Origin: Spiroplasma phoeniceum P40
Lineage (GTDB): Bacteria; Bacillota_I; Bacilli_A; Mycoplasmatales; Mycoplasmataceae
Reading direction: 5' to 3'
DNA length: 64,000 nt
NCBI RefSeq assembly: GCF_003339775.1
Contig: NZ_CP031088.1
Coordinates: forward strand, 496,001 to 560,000
In this document: piece after piece, positions 40,175-48,526 of the stretch
Numbering within the stretch: the first letter of the stretch is position 1
How the letters are laid out: every line of letters starts with the position of its first letter
Translations under genes and position numbers: made by a program
Notes under the pieces: model-generated
Seen by the model: the letters and a program-made list of their open reading frames with translations, nothing else
Told to the model about the DNA's origin: nothing
Database searches by the model: none

Positions 40175-40711
40175 CATTTTGATATAATGAAGAGGAATAT
40201 ATTAAAAAATATAATAAAGATATTAATATAGAAAAAATTAGATTGAAAAAAATTTAAAAGATAGATATTTATATTTTTTGAGTGATGGAAAAAGATATAA
40301 AGATATTTTACATACAACAGAGAATGCAAATATTAGCGAAAGAACAATATCTAATATTTTTAAAAATGCCGATTTAGAAGAAACCGATTACATTAGTAAT
40401 AAAAATAACAATAAAATTAAAATTCCAAATAATATTTTATATATTCAAATTGACGGAGCTTTTGTTCCTATGAGAGAAAATAAAAAAAAGAATTGAAAAG
40501 AAAATATTTTTTTCAACTATGCATGTAGGTATTAATGAAGAAAAATCAACTAAAACAAGAAAAGTAATTAAAAAGAAAAAGGGTGTTTTTCAAATAATGG
40601 ATAAAAATGTTACTAAAAATAAAAAATCTAGTTTTAATAATTTTATTGACAAAATTTTTAAACTAATGTATACTTATGATATTAATGAAAATACTATAAT
40701 ATTAGTATTAA
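40175..40711 (+). pseudogene. UPF0236/ISLre2-type transposase, N-terminal fragment
   Basis: Reads EEYIKKYNKDINIEKIRL, LKDRYLYFLSDGKRYKDIL, SERTISNIFKNADLEE and IQIDGAFVPMRENKKK. An extra A near 40488 then shifts the frame before STMHVGINEEKSTKTRK and on to ILVLS. Another shift lies near 40255. Homology to the copy at 20.7 kb ends at 40711, where pdhA begins on the opposite strand. Confidence 0.75.
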
Positions 40712-41349
40712 GCTGCAAAGTTTATTGCTTTCGTTGCTTTACGACGCGGAGTTGAAATTGCATACTGATTATTTTCCACAATAAAAATTGCTGGAACTTC
40801 ATGTAACTTCGCAAGGTTCATTGCTTCATAAAATTCTCCTTCAGAAGAACCACCATCACCAGTTGTTGTAATAACAACACCATGACGTTTATTATATTTT
40901 TCAGAAAATGCTAACCCAGTTGCATGCGAATATTGTGTTGCAATTGGAATATTAATTGGTAAAGTATTAATTCCTTCTGGCATATAACTTCCCATTTCAT
41001 TTCCACATCAATATAACATAATATTGCGCATTGGAACACCTGTTGCTAATCAAGCAGCATTATTTCGATATGCTGAGGAAAATCAGTCTTTTCCTTTAAT
41101 AATTTGCATTCCATATGCTACTTCAGTTGCTTCTTGACCAGTTGATGAAAGAAATGATAGCATTCTTCCTTGTCTTTGAATTTTATTTTGAAAATCATCT
41201 TGGCGACGTGATAAGCACATTAATTTATACGCTGTTAAAACCTCATCGTCACTAATTTTTGGCACCAAATCTGGTTTAACAATCTTTCCCGTTGCATCCA
41301 TAATTTGAAGCATTTCATTTTTTAACGAATCAAATTTGTTAAAATACAT
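40708..41349 (-). pseudogene. pdhA: Pyruvate dehydrogenase E1 alpha, 3'-truncated
   Basis: Residues 1-213 of an enzyme of about 370. Starts MYFNKFDSLKNEM behind CAGGAA. It has the E1 substrate-channel region (SSTGQEATEVAYG), the thiamine-diphosphate/Mg motif GDGGSSEGEFYEAMN and NNQYAISTPRRKATKAINFAA, and then ends at the edge of a transposase fragment with a chance TAA. The C-terminal third, with the phosphorylation-loop/active-site His region and subunit contacts, is absent, and pdhB, pdhC and pdhD do not follow. It lies 37 bases downstream of lplA. Confidence 0.85.
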
Positions 41350-41386: not shown

Positions 41387-42373
41387 TTAGGTAAAAATAA
41401 CATCTAAAATTTCTTGTAGTTCAAATTTATTCCCAAAAATATCTTTAATATTAATTTCTAATAATTTTGTTTTAATTTTATCCAGATTATATTCACAACC
41501 TGTTAAAAGAGTTTCAAGTGGCTCTGTTCCACTAGAACCTAAAAAATCACCAAAAAATTTAATGTTCGTAATTTTTCCTTCATTAACATTTAAACGCACA
41601 TCAACGGTACCTTTTCCTTCATATCGAATTTTATTCTGATAACTAAATTCAGGTGAATTACCAAAGTTTCATTCCCATGTTTGATATTTTTCATCAGCTA
41701 GTTTATTAACTGCCGCAATAATATCTTGTGGTAAATCTAACACTGGTGTTCCTTGTGCTAAAAACTCATTAGTAATAAATAGCATAAATTCATCAATTGT
41801 AATATCATTTGTTAATAATGGTCGAATATTAGTTACTCGTGCCGGAATTGATTTAATTCCTTTTGAAATAATTTTATCTTGACTAACATTTAAGTATTTT
41901 TGCATTTTACTTAAATCAACATCAAATAAAAATGTTCCATGGTGTAGCAACCGATTTTTATACTTTATTTGTGCATTACCAGAGATTTTTTTGCCATCAA
42001 TTTCAATATCATTTTTACCAGCAAACTTAGCATTTAAACCAAGTTTTTGTAAAACATTAATAATAGGTTGTAAAATACTTTCATAATTTTGCGCAATTTT
42101 ATCATCTTTATTAACAATAATGGAAAAACACAAATTACCATCATCTTGATAAACAGCCCCACCACCTGTTATTCGACGAGCAACATTCACCTTATCAGTT
42201 TCAACCGCTTGTAAATTAATTTCTTCAATCGTATTTTGATTTCGACCAATAACAATTGTATTAAAATTTTTTCACAAAAAGAAAATGTTGTCTTTAATAT
42301 CACTTTTTAAAAGATACTCATCTAAAGCCAAATTAAAATAAACATCTGTAGAAGAATTTTTAAAACAAATCAT
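41387..42373 (-). CDS. lplA: Lipoate-protein ligase A
   Basis: Length is 328 residues. It activates free lipoate and attaches it to lipoyl domains of 2-oxoacid dehydrogenases. Motifs: RRITGGGAVYQDDGN (lipoyl-AMP site), GKNDIEIDGKKISGNAQ (catalytic Lys region) and HHGTFLF. The C-terminal accessory domain is present. It begins 5 bases after nox and precedes pdhA, so the substrate was probably the PDH complex encoded here. RBS is poor (AAGAAA). Confidence 0.93.
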
Positions 42374-43970: not shown

Positions 43971-44912
43971 TTATTTTTCAAAATGTTTTAAAAATCAACG
44001 GCCTTCAACAGATAACAAGCGTTGTGTTTGCTCATTAAGCAATGTTTTTTCTAGTTCTTTATCAATACGGTAAATTCGTGCATCTAAATTATCTAAAAAT
44101 GATAAGATTTCTGCTTCTAATAAGTGTGGTTCAACAGGTGAACCATATTCCAATCGACCATGGCTAGATAAAATCATATGTTCTAATAAAACAATTTTTG
44201 CTGAATTTAAATTATTACTTTGGGCAAGATGATTTAATTCATTTGCCATAATTGAAATATGACCAAGTAATTTTCCTTCAAATGAAAAATCATTCGTAGC
44301 ACCACTTGTAATTTCAATAACTTTTCCTAAATCATGTAAAATAACACCACAATATAATAGTTCCGCATCAATTAAACGATCATGATAAACATTGACAACA
44401 TTTTTTGCCATTTGCAGCATAGTTAAACTATGCCAAATTAAACCTGATTTAATTTCATGATGATTACGAATAGCAGCTGGTCAAATTTTAAATTGCTCAC
44501 CATATTTTGCTAAAATTAAAGTCATAATTTCACGATATTCAGTTGTTTTCATTTTTTTTACTGTTATAATAATTTCATCATACATTGCATCTGCTGGAAG
44601 CGGCGCAACTTCAATAAAATCATCTAGATTAATACTGGCATTATCAACAATATTATAACTATTAATTTTTGCTTGTAAAACTTTTCGATACTCAATAATA
44701 TTAATATTTACTTTGTAACAATTACCTTTAATTCAACTTTCAATGTCAGCAGGACGAGCATCTCATAACCTTGCTTCAATTGTTCCAGTACGATCTTTCA
44801 AGGTTATTGATAAATAAGTGCTGCCATTAGATGCTGTCCCTTGGGTCACCTTATCAGCAATTACGATTAATTCTACATTATTAACTTCTTTTGTTAAATC
44901 TTTAATATTCAT
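43971..44912 (-). CDS. yhaM: 3'-5' exoribonuclease YhaM
   Basis: Length is 313 residues. An N-terminal OB-fold nucleic-acid-binding domain (STYLSITLKDRTGTIEARLWDA) is followed by an HD domain: HSLTMLQMA, ILHDLGK (HD pair), EHMILSSHG and HLLEAEILSFLDNLDA. Degrades RNA and single-stranded DNA 3' to 5'. RBS GGAGGGG. 44 bases after the E2-like gene with a hairpin between. Confidence 0.9.
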
Positions 44913-44956: not shown

Positions 44957-46807
44957 TTATAATAAAAGCCCTGGATTTGATAATAAATATGCAACATAAT
45001 GGATAAATTTACTTGCTTCAGTAATATCAATTACAGCTTCATTATACCCCAATGTAATTACCATAATATCACGAATTGCAATATCATTTTTTTCAACCAC
45101 AACAGGTTTTTTAAAAATAATACCCATTGCAATTGCGGCAACATTATCATCTGGAATTGTAAATGTTCCCCGTGTTATTCCATATTCACCATAATTTATA
45201 ATTGAGAATGAGGCATCTTGACAGTCTTTTTCTTTTAATTCATTATTAATACTTTTACTTATTAATTTTGTTACCTTTGAAGCAATTTCTTTAATTGAAA
45301 CATTTTTTAAATTATATAAAACAGGCATTTTTACTGCAGTATCACTATCTACACTAAAAGCAATATTATAAAATCATTTTAATAAAATTTTATTTTTCTG
45401 ACTAATAAAGGATGCATTTAAAACAGGGGTTTTTTTTAATCCATCATAGACTGCTTTAACATAAAAAGGCAATAATGTTAATTCAATATCATTTTGTGAA
45501 TATGCTTCACGCATAATTGACAATAAACTAACTAACTCACTAACATCAACTTCAACATCAATAAAACAATGGACAATATTTTTTTTACTTTCCATAATTT
45601 CTTTTGCACGAATAATTGCTTCTTGATTTAATTTTACCTTGTCAACTTGCAAAGTTTGTGGATTTTCTTTTATTTTATGTTCTGAAGAAACGGAATGTTC
45701 CCTTGACGTTGCATCTTCTGACTTATGCTTTTTAAGATTAGAGGAAACAGACGAATGAACCGTCGAATGTGACTTTGAATGTTCACCATGATGTCCCTTC
45801 GGCTTATCCTCTACTGGCTTATGCTTTTCATAATGCGACGAAGCAGACGAATGAACCGTCGAATGTGACTTTGAATGTTGACTATGATGCTCCTTCGGCT
45901 TATTTTCCACTAATTTATCTTGCTCTAAATTTATAATAGGTTCCATTTTTGAATCATCAACATTATTTATACTTTGAGCAAAATTACTTTTTAATTCTTC
46001 TTTTGTATAATTTTCTTGTTTGTATTCTTCTCTATCAAAGGGTTGATGATGTAAGGGGTCTAGTTTTTTATCATCAACTTGTTTTCTCACAGCCATTTCT
46101 GCTGTAAATGCTAAATCACGTTCTAAATTTTCAAGTTCTTCAATAACTTCTTCTTCAATTGTTATTGTTGCTAAATCATCTTTAACAATTGCCAAATCTT
46201 CTTTTAAATCACCCAAATCTTTTTGCAATGTTTCAATATTTTCTTCACTAGGAATATTCTCAAGAACATTTTCAACTTTATCTTTAAACGGAAATGTCTT
46301 TGAATCATTATTCTGGCTAAAAAATGGGGTTGAATCTTGTTCTATATTTTCTTCTGATAAATCAATTTCAATTGAATCTTCAAAATCATCTTGTGGATTT
46401 TCACCAGCTACTTCACGTGCTAGTAATGTTTCAATTAATTCTTCGCGAAAAATTTCTGTTTCTGATTTTTTAACATCAATTGGTGACCGATTTTGTACAT
46501 TATATTTTCCAGAACCATTAAAATAAATATTATTATAGGGTTGCTCAAAATTATTGCCATGTTCATTAAGGGTTGCCTCAAATGGTAATAAATCTAATAA
46601 AACATCACCACTATTAATAACTTTATTTTCATAAACAATAAGATTTAACACTTCACCAGTAATTGGCGCTTTAATTTCATAAACTTTATTTTGTGTAATA
46701 ATGTTAGCAAGTTTATCCCCCTTTTGGACAACTTGTTTATTTGTAACAAAAATTTTATCAACAATTCCTTTGCAATTATCATCTGCTTCAAAAATAATTT
46801 TTGCCAT
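44957..46807 (-). CDS. Lipoyl-domain protein with degenerate E2 acyltransferase domain
   Basis: Length is 616 residues. Residues 1-76 form a biotinyl/lipoyl domain (MAKIIFEADDNCKGIV...); the expected DKA lysine context reads QNKVYEIKAP (K41). The long middle (about 90-410) is acidic, then His/Ser/Lys-rich with a 34-residue tandem repeat (HSKSHSTVHSS). The C-terminal 200 residues resemble the 2-oxoacid dehydrogenase acyltransferase domain (FIDVEVDVSELV, LLPFYVKAVYDGLKKTP, FSIINYGEYGITRGTFTI), but where HRxxDG belongs the sequence reads YNEAVIDITEA, so the catalytic His is missing. Start ATG 46807 after GGGGGG. Confidence 0.7.
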
Positions 46808-46849: not shown

Positions 46850-48526
46850 TTATTCTTTTAAATAATTAGTTTCTAATTCTTGGTACATTGCTTCCATTTT
46901 TCTTTTTGCTTCTTCATTTGTTTTATCAACACAAACAAAATAGAATTTTATTTTTGGTTCTGTTCCACTTGCACGAACTGCAAATCAACTACCATCTGCA
47001 AAATAAAACTTTAGTAAGTCTTGGCCTGGCATTTCATATAAACCATGCAAATAATCTTCTTTTTTAATACATTTAATTTTATCTAAACTAGTAATTGTTT
47101 CTTGTCGTAATTTTTTTAACATATTATTAATAATTTTTTTGCCATCAATTCCATCACGAACTAAATTAACTGTTTTACAATAAAAATAACCAAATTTATT
47201 ATATTGTTCAACTAAAACATCATATAATGTTTTTCCTTGATTATGATAATACCAACAAGCTTCTGATAAGACTAATGATGATTGAATTCCATCTTTATCA
47301 CGAGTTATGTCTTTTAAAACATAACCATATGCTTCTTCAAATCCAAATAAAAATTCTAGACCTTTATCTGCTGCTTTGCTCATTTGATCCCCAATTCATT
47401 TAAAACCAGTTAATGTTTTAATAACTTGAACACCATAACTTTCAGCTACTTTATCTGATAAATTTCCAGTAACAAAAGTATTATACATAACCCCATTTTT
47501 AGGTAATGTTTTTTGACGTTGATAATGGGAAAATAAATACTCAATTAATACCGGAGCTGTTTCATTTCCAGTCATTAAATAATACTCATTATCTTTAATT
47601 TTAACACCAATTCCTAAACGATCAGCATCAGGGTCATTTAAAATAATGACGTCAGCATTAATTTTTTTCGCATATTTTAATGCTAAATCATAACATTCTG
47701 TTAATTCTGGATTCGGATTAGGGGCAAAAGTAAAATTAGGATCATTATCAAATTGCTCTTCTACAATCGTAACATCATAGCCACATTCTTTTAAAATTCG
47801 TGGAGTTCATTCTTTACTTGTTCCATGCAAATTAGAAAAAACAATCTTAATATTACGTTTTTGATTTGGATAAAAATGCATTGCTTTAACATCGCTGACA
47901 TAATTATCCTCGACTTCTTTTGCAACATATGTAATTAAAGTTGAATCTGGATTTAAAGTTAAAGTAAAAACTTCTTCTTTAATTTTTAAGTAATTTTCAC
48001 CAATGACATCAGTTGCGACTGGCAAAAACTGTGAACCATTATGATCATAAATTTTATAACCATTATATTCACGCGAATTATGACTTGCTGTAATAATAAC
48101 ACCCGCTACCGCTTTTATTTTCCGAATGGTATAAGAAACCATTGGAGTTGGGCGAAGGTCATTATTAGTAAATAAAATTGCTTTAATATTATTACTAGCA
48201 AAAATATTTGCTACTTCTTGTGCAAATTCAGCTGAAAAATGACGGTTATCATGCCCAATTACAATTCCTTTTGATTTTAAATCTGTCGCAGAATAAATTG
48301 TTTTTAAATATTGCATAAAAGCTAATGTTGCTCTTCGAATTGTATATAAATTCATTTTTCCGGTTCCTGGACCTAATAATCCTCGCAATCCAGCAGTTCC
48401 AAATTCTAAATCATCTGAAAAAGCAGCAATTAAATCTGCTTCAGACATTTGTTGAAATTCAGTGGCTAATGTTGGATCTAAATTTTTAGCATCTTTCCAT
48501 AATTTTAAATTATCTAAATATGACAT
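46850..48526 (-). CDS. pgm: Phosphoglucomutase/phosphomannomutase
   Basis: Length is 558 residues. Alpha-D-phosphohexomutase with phosphoserine loop TASHNSREYNGYK, metal loop DPDADRLG, sugar-binding FGFEEAYGY and phosphate-binding RASGTEPKIK. Interconverts hexose 1- and 6-phosphates. Start MSYLDNLKLW at 48526 behind AGGAG. Gap of 42 bases to the E2-like gene. Confidence 0.93.

Follow-up and report, generated by a model that had tools for sequence, protein, structure and literature searches.

Inactive relatives of the E2 acyltransferase are familiar mainly from the pyruvate dehydrogenase (PDH) complex of eukaryotes, where protein X (E3BP, PDHX) is an E2-derived subunit devoid of acyltransferase activity that keeps lipoylated and E3-binding domains and needs an active PDH. 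In E2s, a conserved C-terminal tail helps trimers pack into cages. In mollicutes, metabolic enzymes have been turned into parts of the cell architecture or of the motility machinery, the Spiroplasma fibril protein and the F1-ATPase paralogs of Mycoplasma mobile gliding being the examples treated in two reports (PMC9710875, PMC8406192). The open-access literature yielded neither a cytoskeletal protein of Spiroplasma that resembles an E2 nor a dead E2 of bacteria, which leaves their absence unproven.

Here we describe psE2-A, a gene located in a window of 64,000 nucleotides of Spiroplasma phoeniceum P40 (contig NZ_CP031088.1, positions 496,001 to 560,000), whose product is a conserved E2-derived pseudoenzyme. 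With the E2 of bacterial PDH (Spiroplasma pdhC; B. stearothermophilus 3duf and 1b5s) it has a common ancestry by sequence and shares the lipoyl-type domain, the linker, the core fold and the C-terminal tail, while differing in the lack of the catalytic His, the lipoyl Lys and the E3-binding domain, in its longer linker and in its location outside the pdh operon. As in E3BP, the E2 core is dead, but psE2-A has neither a lipoylated nor an E3-binding domain and persists without PDH. The fibril protein and the M. mobile F1-ATPase paralogs have folds unrelated to these E2-like proteins.

Gene context and distribution

The gene is a single open frame with its ATG at position 46807, read with code 4 (TGA as Trp) and containing one TGA codon; the table 11 reading was rejected, as it broke both psE2-A and its neighbors, which code 4 resolves. 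The surrounding genes all lie on the minus strand, in the order pstS-pstA-pstB-phoU-pgm-psE2-A-yhaM-nox-lplA-pdhA fragment (Table 1). The source genome (1.9 Mb; G000 in our set) resembles those of the Spiroplasma citri group, with psE2-A orthologs 88–94% identical in its nearest relatives, and a scan of named genomes returned two loci, in S. phoeniceum and S. poulsonii, both Spiroplasma. The gene occurs in all 14 genomes of the genus, broken in one (G011). In G007 it is separated from yhaM by a few short ORFs (L042:6050-7077) that may belong to an insertion element. In other genera the ortholog, 479 to 856 aa long, lies directly upstream of yhaM in 22 of 24 further loci (yhaM is not adjacent in L129 and L132), and orthologs in this position span five genera.

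Domain organization and loss of the active site

The original prediction had read this frame as an E2-like protein without catalytic His, and both parts of that reading were borne out. Pfam assigns 2-oxoacid_dh (PF00198) to residues 393–618 (E 6e-43) and, by a weak match below its cutoff, Biotin_lipoyl to residues 16–74 (both numbered +2). The AlphaFold2 model agrees with the fold proposed for the two ends of the protein: it places a lipoyl-like beta sandwich at 2–75 (pLDDT ~85) and an E2 core at ~388–616, joined by a linker that is disordered or helical. Foldseek pairs the predicted core with E2 cores of known structure, among them 8xll_L, with a TM-score of 0.92 over the target. The HRxxDG position is occupied by E590-A591-V592-I593-D594-I595, and a catalytic His at this position is absent from every psE2-A ortholog aligned; nor does an aligned catalytic His stand anywhere else in the family. 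The C-terminus reads NPG[LFY]L[IL], or closely so, across a set of 32 sequences. Cutoffs of the curated NCBIfam E2 equivalogs are not reached by psE2-A, the best score being 126.8 bits vs. 722.

The linker, predicted to be long and acidic and then His-rich, proved to be so: its ~315 residues are first acidic and helix-rich (37 D+E vs. 12 K+R in residues 137–260) and then His/Ser-rich with a 32-residue repeat. A further segment, residues 113–136, is modeled by AlphaFold2 as a helix at 116–133 with low confidence. Outside the genus this segment is not recognizable, in contrast to the lipoyl-like domain and the C-terminal motif, which can still be identified there.

Table 1. Position of psE2-A, its domains and neighboring genes in the window, and of the longE2 gene of the same genome.
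Feature	Position	Strand	Evidence
psE2-A, E2-like pseudoenzyme gene, 616 aa	44957..46807	-	Code 4 open frame; between pgm and yhaM
Lipoyl-like beta-sandwich, residues 1-76, conserved TQ vs. canonical TD before the lipoyl K	46580..46807	-	AlphaFold2; sub-cutoff Pfam Biotin_lipoyl
N40 (aligns with lipoyl lysine), then K41 (earlier candidate)	46685..46690	-	phmmer to 3duf; ortholog columns
Residues 113-136, KKSETEIFREELIETLLAREVAGE, predicted helix, most constrained stretch within the genus	46400..46471	-	13-way alignment; omega 0-0.13
Acidic helix-rich linker, residues 137-260	46028..46399	-	Composition; AlphaFold2 helices 188-213, 217-246
His/Ser-rich segment, 32-residue tandem repeat, residues ~303-364	45716..45901	-	Alignment, composition
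E2 core domain, residues 392-616, conserved C-terminus NPGLLL	44960..45634	-	Pfam PF00198; Foldseek
Inactivated active site Y588-N-E-A-V-I-D-I595 (canonical FDHRxxDG)	45023..45046	-	Alignments
Phosphosugar mutase (pgm-like), neighbor of psE2-A	46850..48526	-	NCBIfam matches below cutoff; synteny in genus
yhaM, 3'-5' exoribonuclease family, conserved downstream neighbor of psE2-A	43971..44912	-	NCBIfam PRK13480, E 5e-85, below its cutoff; synteny
lplA, intact	41387..42373	-	TIGR00545, 405 bits vs. cutoff 280
pdhA fragment, 213 of ~367 aa, pdh operon remnant	40708..41349	-	Operon intact in nine relatives
longE2 of the source genome	G000:C1:856138-859098		PF00198

A second dead E2 family

The source genome holds only two PF00198 loci, psE2-A and a gene for a 987-aa protein here called longE2, and no catalytic E2. 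The two families have the same layout, have each lost both active sites and occur in the same genomes; longE2 differs in its replacement of the His (H to Q), its greater length (~890–1030 aa in most genomes), its other conserved linker segments and its wider distribution. At L035:3136-6099 longE2 was noted as a family of ~900–1000 aa that shares its genomes with psE2-A. In longE2, DQRIIDA stands in place of DHRxxDG and the lipoyl position has no lysine; Q and R persist in distant members with few exceptions, such as G051 (DRR). Foldseek likewise pairs its core with E2 cores of known structure, and the E3_binding domain, clearly matched by Pfam in Spiroplasma pdhC, was detected neither in longE2 nor, at E ≤ 10, in psE2-A. 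In a tree of E2 cores the psE2-A clade received 100% support and the longE2 clade 99%, the two being joined at 98%, a grouping that long branches may inflate. An order-wide search with longE2 returned mostly cross-matches to ordinary E2s, together with true relatives in one other family of the order, where a version of 670–692 aa carries DQRAID. The G050 and G051 copies have no lipoyl-like domain; divergent longE2 relatives without it were noted in two small genomes, at L155:1043-3010 and L154:954-2552, one of them with DRR at the active site.

Co-occurrence with fibril and MreB

Full-length or nearly full-length fibril homologs were found in 42 of 60 family-level genomes, the other 18 giving short nucleosidase-like matches or none, and MreB-type matches number 4–9 in the former vs. 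1–3, and weaker, in the latter. longE2 is present in all 42 fibril genomes and psE2-A in 39 of them, while neither occurs in any of the other 18 (counts not corrected for phylogeny); the fibril genomes in which a search did not find psE2-A are G018, G050 and G051. In G011 psE2-A is broken despite an intact fibril gene. The fibril genes at G048:C1:366301-367833 and G036:C1:424287-425815 are disrupted, by a stop codon or a break in the frame, in genomes that keep both E2-like families, and a review reports disrupted fibril genes in some helical species (PMC7609405). Against a part of the E2-like proteins in cell shape, published work indicates that MreB, with or without fibril, already confers helicity and kinking on other mollicutes. 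The joint profile of fibril, MreB and E2-like genes is phylogenetically nested and may reflect one event, as it would if the other 18 genomes form one clade.

Proteomic lists were also compared with the two families. In the genome that we take to be that of S. eriocheiris, psE2-A is 621 aa and longE2 1005 aa long. By size or annotation, neither was seen among the 16 Triton-resistant internal-structure proteins of S. eriocheiris (PMC5289999), nor among the ribbon components of another study (PMC9582952). Such gel-based lists cover abundant bands, so that a minor polar component would be compatible with them.

Because both working parts of the PDH core have been lost, psE2-A and longE2 are probably building blocks and not enzymes. 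The suggestion of a structural protein in the original prediction gains ground, with the E2 fold kept, no catalytic His family-wide and the gene conserved, and a scaffold is the most economical function for psE2-A. The protein derives from the E2 of pyruvate dehydrogenase: the core fold, the C-terminal tail and a lipoyl-like domain, carried by a long and flexible linker, are retained, but catalytic His, lipoyl Lys and E1/E3-binding domain are gone; its core may assemble into an oligomer, the lipoyl-like domain and linker may serve as protein-binding arms, and longE2, of the same design, probably works alongside it. Helical cell architecture appears the likeliest setting, as a lead, since the occurrence of longE2 coincides with that of fibril and multiple MreBs and the occurrence of psE2-A almost does. 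On balance we lean towards psE2-A being an E2-derived oligomeric scaffold pseudoenzyme tied to the helical body plan, where the scaffold role is deduced from the retained parts and the cytoskeletal role is a lead. A more specific version, in which two scaffolds derived from the PDH E2 core would form cages or hubs of the helical architecture, e.g., in the polar dumbbell, and thus add another enzyme fold to the mollicute shape or motility machinery, is rather doubtful.

Alternative functions

Instead of an independent scaffold, psE2-A could be an accessory PDH subunit like the eukaryotic protein X/E3BP, incorporated into the PDH core and modulating or placing the complex. In seven genomes of the genus it lies near the operon lplA-pdhABCD, which speaks for such a link, as does the fact that the only broken copy (G011) belongs to a PDH-less genome. 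Furthermore, the rate of the psE2-A core, measured against control genes, is about doubled in PDH-less lineages (2.4 vs. 1.2), although that of longE2 rises likewise, so that this acceleration is a weak and non-specific hint of a PDH link. However, pdhB is intact in only nine of the 14 genus genomes, being absent or fragmentary in G000, G004, G007, G011 and G012. These nine also have an intact pdhC, whereas the G012 copy is broken. psE2-A is nonetheless intact in four genomes (G000, G004, G007 and G012) whose pdhB and pdhC are either gone or damaged, so that no usable PDH is left. It also has no E3-binding domain, lies far from the pdh operon in G003 and G006, and was not found in G018, which has pdhC. 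We therefore regard a protein X-like role as unlikely. The pdh operon as a whole is lost or broken in five of the 14 genus genomes; G000 retains a pdhA truncated to 213 aa and has neither pdhB nor pdhC.

The loss of the His might have been compensated if Glu590 acted as base in a protein that is still an acyltransferase. Every ortholog of the genus has Glu here, and D594 is nearly invariant (13-way alignment), but beyond the genus the position is variable (Q/N/T/S/K/A/C/E) and the R and G of HRxxDG are lost as well, which leaves little likelihood for a Glu-based enzyme. A role of the His-rich segment as metal store or metal sensor, suggested by 15 His in the 86 residues 300–385 and by the longer His-rich stretches of G008–G010 in the alignment, has an equally slim chance, as the repeat is variable and lineage-specific and is missing in G001, G003, G006 and G013, although both end domains are kept there.

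The lipoyl domain had been proposed to carry a candidate lysine, K41, which LplA might modify, making psE2-A a moonlighting lipoyl carrier. While the fold stood, and a Lys does lie in the hairpin with lplA nearby in G000, the lysine did not: in a phmmer alignment ungapped through the hairpin, the lipoyl lysine of B. stearothermophilus E2 (3duf) falls on N40, leaving K41 one residue out of register. In model domains, lipoylation is lost when the lysine is displaced by a single residue. Across psE2-A orthologs the lipoyl-lysine position is N/S/L/V/M/F/G/R and never K, and since Arg replaces K41 in G001 and G013 and the residue is not conserved in other genera, a lipoyl carrier is judged from sequence to be very unlikely. 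The proposed check, whether lplA accompanies psE2-A where PDH is gone, gave a negative answer: lplA is intact in the nine pdhB-bearing genomes and, among the five PDH-less ones, in G000 only, being broken in G004 and not found in G007, G011 and G012, so that three of the four PDH-less genomes with intact psE2-A (G004, G007 and G012) have no intact lplA. In G000 lplA is intact, yet no lipoyl-lysine protein was found among the Pfam lipoyl and E2 matches, GcvH lying outside this search.

Selection was measured as omega by Nei-Gojobori with code 4; values from the closest pairs are higher and carry more noise. In wider pairs omega was 0.09–0.21 for the core, 0.05–0.35 for the lipoyl-like domain and 0.3–0.65 for the linker, falling near zero in residues 113–136; the core and the lipoyl-like domain are under purifying selection. 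Decay without function is the least likely reading of all, since this constraint and the retention of orthologs upstream of yhaM in five genera outweigh the broken G011 copy and a linker omega near 1 in the closest pairs.

The scaffold reading leaves a picture of two bacterial families that have lost catalysis, lipoylation site and partner-binding domain and are nevertheless kept across the small genomes of helical Spiroplasma, even without PDH. If they belong to the apparatus for shape or swimming, then the current efforts to rebuild this system in synthetic cells would be missing these components; if their role is not related to shape, they would still represent an E2 core used as a pure scaffold.
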